64,000 bases of DNA from Cystobacter fuscus. Lineage in GTDB: Bacteria; Myxococcota; Myxococcia; Myxococcales; Myxococcaceae. Shown here piece after piece: positions 59,740 through 61,864 of the stretch (the first letter of the stretch is position 1; every line of letters starts with the position of its first letter). The stretch covers positions 11,780,001 to 11,844,000 of the forward strand of contig NZ_CP022098.1 in assembly GCF_002305875.1 (NCBI RefSeq), read 5' to 3'. The notes under the pieces are model-generated. The model had not been told where the DNA came from. It made no database searches and saw only the letters and a program-made list of their open reading frames with translations. The position numbers and the translations under genes are program-made.

Positions 59740-59822
59740 CGGAAGCATAAGCGCCCGGCGGTCATCCCCCATCCGGACTCATTCGTGGTGGGGGCCTGAA
59801 GGGAAACGAGGAAGAAGAGGGA

Positions 59823-59881
59823 GGCCGACAAGGAGTGAACGAGACGGACAGTTTGGAATGTAGTCCCGTTCGCATTCGGCC
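59823..59881 (-). ncRNA. Candidate structured RNA element A
   Basis: A 59-nt hairpin. In plus-strand coordinates GGCCGA (59823-59828) pairs with TCGGCC (59876-59881), GAACG (59837-59841) with CGTTC (59867-59871), and GGAC (59846-59849) with GTCC (59863-59866), with a 13-nt loop and a 4-nt bulge (59842-59845). Copy B has the same loop, bulge and helix order with compensated base-pair changes. It lies downstream of the Ro60-like gene. The strand shown is the gene strand; it is not proven. Confidence 0.55.
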
Positions 59882-59896
59882 TCCCTCCTCCGCCGT

Positions 59897-59955
59897 GGCC
59901 GGCAAGGGGTGAGTGAGACGGACAGTTTGGAATGTAGTCCCACTCGCATCCGGCC
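59897..59955 (-). ncRNA. Candidate structured RNA element B
   Basis: A 59-nt copy of element A, 74 bp further on. GGCCGG (59897-59902) pairs with CCGGCC (59950-59955), GAGTG (59911-59915) with CACTC (59941-59945), GGAC (59920-59923) with GTCC (59937-59940). Compared with A, three base pairs change together (one in the outer stem, two in the middle stem) while the 13-nt loop and bulge are identical. It ends 11 nt from the stop of the Ro60-like gene. Confidence 0.55.
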
Positions 59956-59966
59956 CTCGGCGTTCC

Positions 59967-61523
59967 TCAAAGCCCGGTGCTCTCGATGGACTCCACCCAC
60001 CGACGGGCGTCCAACCCGCCTCGGGCGAAGTCCGACATCAGCTCGAACACCACATCCGAAAAACCTCCCACGTTGAGGATGTCCTCACGCTCCGGAGCCT
60101 GGGTCGTCCGGTAGGGCTGGAGATCGATGCACATCAGCCGTGCGTTCGGGTTGCGGCGCCGGAAGAGCTCCCACTGTCGCAGCGTCTCCGTCCCCGCCCC
60201 CGCTCGCGCGTCCACCCACGACTCGTTGTCCGACACGAAGATCACCAGCTCTCCCTTCGCCTGGCGCGCGTTCAGCCACGCCAGTGGCGCACTGCAGCTC
60301 GTCCCGCCACCACCCACCGCCGCCAGCCGCTGGGCGTTGGTCATGATGCTGTCGCGCGCGTGGAGCGTCAGCGGCACCACGTCATGGTCGAAGGGCACCA
60401 CCTGCGTGCCCGGATTGCGGCGCAGCATGGCCGCCGCCAGCAGCGCGGCCACGTCCACGCAGCGCACCGCCGTCGTCGCTCCCTCGCGATGACCCGTCAC
60501 CGGCGACTGCATGGAGCCCGAGACGTCCACGCAGACATAGGCCCGGCCGTCCACGCGCGGCACGTTCTCGATGGCCACCTCCATGGCTTCCTCCACCGCA
60601 TCGCGCACCCGCGCGGGCACCTGGCGCCCCACCGCGCGCCACGTCGCCAGGAGCTGGTACGGGAACACCCGTGCCCGCCGCACCTCCGCTGGATCCGCCA
60701 GCCGCCGGGCGATCATCTTCTCCATGCCCGACTCGCCAAAGACGCCGTGCCGGGCGAAGGTGTTGAGGTTCATCCGCGTCATCTGCCAGGAGGCCCCCTG
60801 GGCGATGCGTACCCACGCCGCCGTCTTCAGGGGCAGGGAGGTGAGCAGTTGGAAGGGCACCTCCGGCACCTCGCGCGAGGAGGGGCGGACCTTGAAGTCC
60901 TCGTAGTGGGCCACCAGCTCCGGCAACGCCTCGCGCGCGTGGGGCCGGCCCAGCAGGTAGCCATAGAAGGCCTCGCGCCGGGCCGTCTTCGGCTTGGGGT
61001 GCACCATGCGGATGATGTCCGCCAACGAGGGGGACTGGCCCACCGAGTCACGAAAGAGCGTGTCCTCGTCGCGCGCGTCCAGCCACTCGCGCACCAGGCG
61101 CTTGGGGAGGCTACCCAGCGAGCGGCGAGCCACGAGCCCCGAGCGCATGATCTGCACGAAGGTGCGCAGCATGCGGCCGTTGTCGATGACACGCGGGAAG
61201 ACGCGGGGCAACAGCTCGGGCCCGAGCACCGAGAGCACCGCGCACAGCAGCGCCGGGGTGTCCTTCATGTAGCCACGGTGGCGGCAGTAGAGGGCCGTGC
61301 GCGCCACGAACTCCGGTTCCACCTGGCCGCTCAGCGCGAGCAACTGGTCGAGCTGCACCTCGGCCGCGGCGTAGAAGGTGCCGTTGAGGCAACCGGTGGC
61401 CGCGTACTGGGCCAGCGCGTGCCGGGGCGTGAAGCTGAAGGCGGGAGCGCCCTCCTCGTTGAGGGCATCGGGCCGGGGCATCGCCGGGCCGCGAGTGGTC
61501 TGGAAGAGGGACAGGTTCGCCAT
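59967..61523 (-). CDS. rsr: Ro60-like TROVE/vWA protein
   Basis: A 518-residue ring-forming RNA-binding protein. The TROVE domain (about residues 25-325) starts FSFTPRHALAQYAATGCLNG; the vWA domain (325-515) has the metal (MIDAS) motif D-V-S-G-S-M (333-338) and a later D-x-E. In animals and bacteria Ro60/Rsr binds misfolded RNA and Y RNAs and acts in RNA quality control or repair. ATG 61523 fits the family start. A near-consensus -24/-12 promoter is just upstream. No rtcB or rtcA ligase gene is nearby. Confidence 0.9.
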   Translation of the reverse strand: MANLSLFQTTRGPAMPRPDALNEEGAPAFSFTPRHALAQYAATGCLNGTFYAAAEVQLDQLLALSGQVEPEFVARTALYCRHRGYMKDTPALLCAVLSVLGPELLPRVFPRVIDNGRMLRTFVQIMRSGLVARRSLGSLPKRLVREWLDARDEDTLFRDSVGQSPSLADIIRMVHPKPKTARREAFYGYLLGRPHAREALPELVAHYEDFKVRPSSREVPEVPFQLLTSLPLKTAAWVRIAQGASWQMTRMNLNTFARHGVFGESGMEKMIARRLADPAEVRRARVFPYQLLATWRAVGRQVPARVRDAVEEAMEVAIENVPRVDGRAYVCVDVSGSMQSPVTGHREGATTAVRCVDVAALLAAAMLRRNPGTQVVPFDHDVVPLTLHARDSIMTNAQRLAAVGGGGTSCSAPLAWLNARQAKGELVIFVSDNESWVDARAGAGTETLRQWELFRRRNPNARLMCIDLQPYRTTQAPEREDILNVGGFSDVVFELMSDFARGGLDARRWVESIESTGL

Positions 61524-61535
61524 GCCCCTGCCTTG

Positions 61536-61551
61536 AGCATCAGGCGTGCCA
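61536..61551 (-). promoter_or_regulatory. Candidate sigma-54 promoter of rsr
   Basis: On the minus strand TGGCACG-CCTG-ATGCT (61551-61536) matches TGGCACG-N4-TTGCT with one mismatch and the required GG-N10-GC spacing. The transcript would start near 61526, only a few nt before the ATG, so the leader would be very short. Known bacterial rsr-rtc operons are sigma-54 dependent, which supports it. Confidence 0.55.
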
Positions 61552-61609
61552 TGTCATCCGCCAGGGGGCTCCTCCACGTAAACCCGCGTTTCGTCGGGGG
61601 CCTGCCTGA

Positions 61610-61864
61610 CTGGGGTCGGGAGCCGCCCCGAACAGGCCTATCCCATGGGATAAAAACCTAGCCCGTCGAATAGAAAGGCTCCGGGCACAGGTCTCGGCTC
61701 ACATCGAAGCAGGAAAGACGCCCGAGAGGACCCGCAGCCTCTCGCGTATGGCCATTGACTGCTCGGCGTACAAGGCGTTCTTCGGGTTCAGGCCCGAGAG
61801 GACCTTTGGCGCGCACGTCGAGGTCGCCGAGGCTGAGGGGAGTGGCGACCCCTCAGCCCGATGA
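61610..61864 (+). pseudogene. Possible gene remnant
   Basis: An open frame of 84 codons with a coding look (RIERLRAQVSAHIEAGKTPE, later AYKAFFGFRPERTFGAHVEV) but no ATG, GTG or TTG with a ribosome-binding site until an internal ATG. It may be a decayed gene tail. No family was recognised. Confidence 0.25.

Follow-up and report, generated by a model that had tools for sequence, protein, structure and literature searches.

A predicted tandem pair of YrlB-like Y RNAs downstream of the Ro60-like gene rsr in Cystobacter fuscus

What are the two short, closely similar elements that follow the Ro60-like gene rsr in Cystobacter fuscus? They lie in a 64,000-nucleotide stretch of contig NZ_CP022098.1 (the window), in which rsr (59967–61523, minus strand) codes for a ring protein of 518 amino acids with Pfam matches to vWA_Ro60 (E 6.7e-20) and TROVE (E 1.5e-5) and a profile match to the solved Deinococcus radiodurans Rsr structure 2nvo (E 8e-31). 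Judging from sequence, we put at roughly 90% the probability that they are a tandem of Y RNAs with a plain, YrlB-like hairpin, which would form the 3' part of the rsr transcript and bind Rsr.

Two covarying hairpins on the rsr strand

The elements are 59-nt copies at 59823–59881 and 59897–59955, with a spacing of 74 and 88% identity, and a search of the window for their core, GGACAGTTTGGAATGTAGTCC, gave just these two sites even when three mismatches were tolerated, against an expectation of zero. Seven positions differ between the copies: one is in an internal loop, and the other six form three compensated pairs (A-U/G-C twice and C-G/U-A once). The probability of at least three compensated pairs arising from seven random substitutions is about 5e-6, and the paired elements are real, not a product of chance. 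The original prediction is borne out in its placement and sizing of the elements after the rsr stop, in its claim that all three changed base pairs are compensated, and in its view that random drift is an unlikely source.

Folds of the single copies give z-scores of -3 to -4.4, and z-scores down to -8.2 are obtained when flanking sequence is included. The hairpin distal to rsr (Y RNA 1, minus strand) spans 59819–59885, or about 59814–59890 with its outer stem (fold -45.3 kcal/mol, z -8.2), and the proximal one (Y RNA 2, minus strand) spans 59893–59959, or about 59891–59962 with its outer stem (-37.0 kcal/mol, z -4.3). Extended outwards in this way the copies abut each other and start about 4 nt past the rsr stop codon.

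On the evidence of pairing and consensus, the active strand is minus, in the same sense as rsr. Here copy 1 reads GGCCGA-AUGC-GAACGGGAC-UACAUUCCAAACUGUCC-GUCUCGUUC-ACUCCUUG-UCGGCC, with a continuous middle helix of 9 bp, GAACGGGAC/GUCUCGUUC, that contains one G·U pair in each copy and is capped by the unpaired 17-nt tip UACAUUCCAAACUGUCC. Each copy fits the bacterial Y RNA consensus CGAAUGC–helix–ACUACAU–helix–CUUGUCG. The structure proposed originally was folded on the plus strand, which pairs less well and lacks the match to the consensus; its 4-nt bulge and 4-bp inner stem give way to the uninterrupted 9-bp helix, the apparent bulge having arisen because the minus-strand G·U becomes C·A on the plus strand.

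A single locus tied to Rsr

Copies scattered through the genome with no link to rsr would mark a repeat, and the search gave the opposite outcome. A covariance model, R1, was built from 35 plain hairpins beside rsr genes of other bacteria, leaving out the window and G033, a second species of the genus. It detects copy 1 at 65.0 bits (genome-wide E 3.7e-16) and copy 2 at 49.7 bits (E 3.2e-11), and the next match in the 12.35-Mb genome scores 16 bits (E 2). Rsr itself was found in three of 96 family genomes, and R1 matches occur in exactly those three genomes and no others. Pfam TROVE, run over the family, detects G033 alone and not the gene in the window, so divergent Ro proteins elsewhere could escape it. 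The chance of this agreement between Rsr and R1 if the two were unlinked is 1 in 142,880 (96 genomes taken three at a time), the true figure being less extreme, as two of the three genomes share ancestry. Weak DNA matches in other family genomes (E 0.001–10) are short and were treated as chance, and a profile search of those genomes gave no Y RNA there. Across the phylum (195 genomes), R1 matches are present in five genomes and Rsr in seven; when the other two were searched more closely, one (L143) yielded Y RNAs, and at the second (L145 in G106), which encodes a distant Ro-like protein (E 1e-33), neither R1 nor the closer search gave a Y RNA.

The hairpins are strong and occupy the gap between two converging genes, a setting in which REP-type or terminator-like repeats with no connection to Rsr might be expected. 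The original prediction had kept a simple REP-type repeat in play; the genome-wide search, with its one locus, and the confinement to genomes with Rsr both speak against it, as does the conservation of the unpaired sequence of the elements across phyla, and no T-run terminator was found at the hairpins. We reject this explanation, to which we give a close to negligible probability.

Together with rsr, the hairpins apparently make up a single unit under a sigma54 promoter. A conserved island with this promoter, rsr and both Y RNAs (59800–61653, minus strand) is 93% identical to G033 over 1857 bp, and comparison of the flanks gave no match; G033 carries the same unit; one middle pair of its copy 2 is broken. 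The two Rsr proteins are 95% identical at 93% DNA identity. The neighboring tyrosyl-tRNA synthetase gene was considered as a member of the unit and rejected, having no match at the G033 locus.

The promoter-like site, TGGCACGCCTGATGCT, matches the sigma54 (-24/-12) pattern with one mismatch just upstream of rsr (61536–61551, minus strand), and the same site precedes rsr in G033. Such sites, with up to two mismatches, are present upstream of 38 of 78 rsr genes, compared with five of 312 control stretches. Transcription from the site would start about 2 nt before the rsr ATG; with site and ATG this close (61523–61551), the message would have almost no leader. In Salmonella, RtcR activates the sigma54 promoter of the rsr operon in response to tRNA fragments that end in cyclic phosphates (PMC7790460, PMC9879122). 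In C. fuscus, rtcR and rtcB are adjacent and divergent, 3.3 Mb from rsr in the same genome, so that any control of rsr by RtcR would operate in trans, from a locus not linked to the rsr promoter. The rtcR-rtcB pair lies at G000:C1:8545109-8547051, and the genome has five RtcB-like loci in total.

The start of the hairpins about 4 nt past the rsr stop, together with the finding of no separate sigma70-type promoter at this place, would also suit a cis-acting 3' UTR element that is never released, and through which Rsr binds, regulates or protects its own mRNA. Against this, the homologous elements at the same position in Salmonella are the Y RNAs YrlB and YrlA, many rsr loci hold up to seven elements, including ones with tRNA-like tips, which is more than a UTR switch needs, and some elements lie upstream of rsr. 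We consider such a 3' UTR element very unlikely, and favor Y RNAs released from the rsr transcript by processing.

A widespread class of plain hairpins

A scan with relatives of Rsr yielded 80 rsr loci from many phyla. A sequence pattern, which in addition asked for five of the six inner pairs of the outer stem, gave 270 elements on the strand of rsr and none on the opposite one, with a single one in two reversed-sequence controls; 242 of the 270 are downstream of rsr, and some are upstream. With R1, 215 matches (E up to 0.05) were obtained at the 80 loci, all 215 on the rsr strand. An alignment of 150 elements, fitted to the R1 model, gives a covariation score of 0.69, compared with 0.19 when shuffled and at most 0.12 in slid controls, and 91% of cells pair; the pair requirement of the pattern, by which the training elements of R1 were picked, makes that part of the outer-stem pairing partly built in, but the middle helix was unselected, and it pairs in 95% of cells of an unfitted alignment. 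About 10% of the paired cells (263 of 2691) are G-U, which can pair solely on the rsr-sense strand, so that the opposite strand would pair in about 81% of cells.

Copy 1, at 65 bits, is the tenth best of 166. Counting against the Y RNA reading, copy 2 carries G-C where 143 of the 150 elements carry A-U. Another explanation is that the hairpins are decayed Y RNAs, no longer functional, left behind after loss of a tRNA-mimic copy. The related genome G050 retains tRNA-mimic copies, and the broken pair in copy 2 of G033 would be in keeping with decay; the rank of copy 1, the retention of pairing by all changes between the two window copies, and the closer identity of Rsr in protein than in DNA argue the other way, and we judge decay to be highly improbable. 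Functional Y RNAs are the reading we retain.

Among rsr loci with at least 1.5 kb of downstream sequence, 67 of 71 have pattern matches, and in 46 of the 67 the first element was classed as plain, meaning that no T arm was recognised in it. By pattern, eight loci have plain elements only, and at least one of these, L038, holds an element of tRNA type that escaped the pattern; given these few cases and the miscount of L038, a locus with only plain hairpins is uncommon. The survey shows that the plain-hairpin Y RNA is a class of wide occurrence and strong consensus, one not captured by the Rfam YrlB model.

The surveyed loci also vary in ways that we record separately. Within 1.6 kb downstream of rsr in L035–L114 there are one to seven Y RNAs, plain and tRNA-mimic types mixed and all on the rsr strand. 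At L036 (3816-3932), L035, L037 and L059 (3037-3155) the tRNA-like module seems to be opened in the D loop and not on the anticodon side; its first bases are GGTAGAGC and its last TAGCTCA, and these ends pair as a D stem in L036 and L059. Acidobacterial Y RNAs at L051 (6901-7011), L110 (4819-4938), L113 (about 4850) and L059 (about 4806) have a common insert, CCTCGCGG..GATAAC..CCGG, which is not obviously a T arm.

A conserved orphan RNA, outside the window at G000:C1:12021824-12021984 (L128 1470-1630, L155 3825-3985), scores 38 bits with the YrlA model and is a long hairpin whose tip resembles a circularly permuted tRNA, with a T arm, a closed acceptor stem and a D arm. It lacks the Rsr-binding consensus. 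Matches are present in 34 of 96 family genomes, just two of which have Rsr, some of the weakest being partial matches. In an alignment of fourteen copies 39 pairs are supported, 15 of them with changes on both sides, and the neighboring genes vary between groups of genomes. Two other YrlA matches in the same genome were checked and fall in or beside tRNA genes.

Predicted role and comparison with known Y RNAs

The lower stem of Y RNAs is the part to which Rsr binds; the Deinococcus Y RNA gates Rsr and also tethers it to PNPase (PMC4726728, PMC8058203). We propose that RtcR probably activates the sigma54 promoter of rsr when cut tRNAs accumulate, and that the Y RNAs would then be transcribed along with rsr, as the 3' portion of its message. 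Each hairpin would bind Rsr through its outer and middle helices and the conserved AAUGC, ACUACAU and CUUG single strands, and the bound RNA would gate the RNA-binding surface of the Rsr ring and may stabilise the protein. Lacking a tRNA-mimic module, it would be unable to tether a partner in the manner of YrlA. With the stem present and the tRNA-like domain absent, gating of Rsr is the most likely role, and tethering through the 17-nt tip a less likely one. A tentative extension, to which we give somewhat less than even odds, is that the Ro RNP of this lineage uses only duplicated plain-hairpin Y RNAs that lack a tether, Rsr being gated with no tRNA-mimic arm in the operon; if so, the gate role of Y RNAs is separated from the tether role in a natural system. 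The literature examined does not assign YrlB-type RNAs a function, and a locus with only the plain type offers a natural Rsr system lacking the tether module, in which the function of YrlB-type RNAs becomes testable.

In their encoding beside rsr, and in an outer and a middle helix with AAUGC, ACUACAU and CUUGUCG strands, both elements fit the broad bacterial Y RNA (Yrl) class, whose Rsr binding they would be expected to share. The Rfam scan of the window gave no match at gathering level, and miRNA names that came up in the Rfam search are chance matches to a long hairpin.

One of the closest known systems is YrlB (RF02565) of the Salmonella operon rsr-yrlB-yrlA-rtcB-rtcA, described in the literature together with its sigma54 promoter and the binding of Yrl RNAs to Rsr (PMC7790460, PMC9879122, PMC4726728). 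Like YrlB, the first RNA after rsr is a plain hairpin directly following the gene, and both carry CGAAUGC, GGA(U/C)UACAU and UUGUCG. Unlike YrlB, the window elements are far under the Rfam cut-off (copy 1 reaches 22.2 bits where the gathering score is 97, with E 0.03 over the 261 bases searched), are present as two tandem copies, and are not followed by YrlA or rtcBA. YrlA (RF02553) carries an added tRNA-like domain (PMC8394870); the elements share with it the Rsr-binding stem consensus and the neighborhood, but not the tRNA-like module of T arm, acceptor and D arm at the tip. The original prediction had noted no such module, and this holds, with the 17-nt tip only and no YrlA match in the window. 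The more distant family relative G050 (L034) joins both types, with three elements at the same place: two that match Rfam YrlA (65.9 and 33.9 bits) and a plain hairpin like those in the window. The RYPER of Deinococcus radiodurans (Y RNA, Rsr and PNPase) likewise pairs a Y RNA with a Ro60 ring protein; its Y RNA sequence was compared through Rfam only, and the window RNA is set beside RYPER by the match of Rsr to 2nvo. The view that these are Y-like RNAs beside a Ro60 gene therefore stands, but not that they are new as a kind, since Salmonella YrlB is known; the window RNAs add a new branch to a known RNA class.
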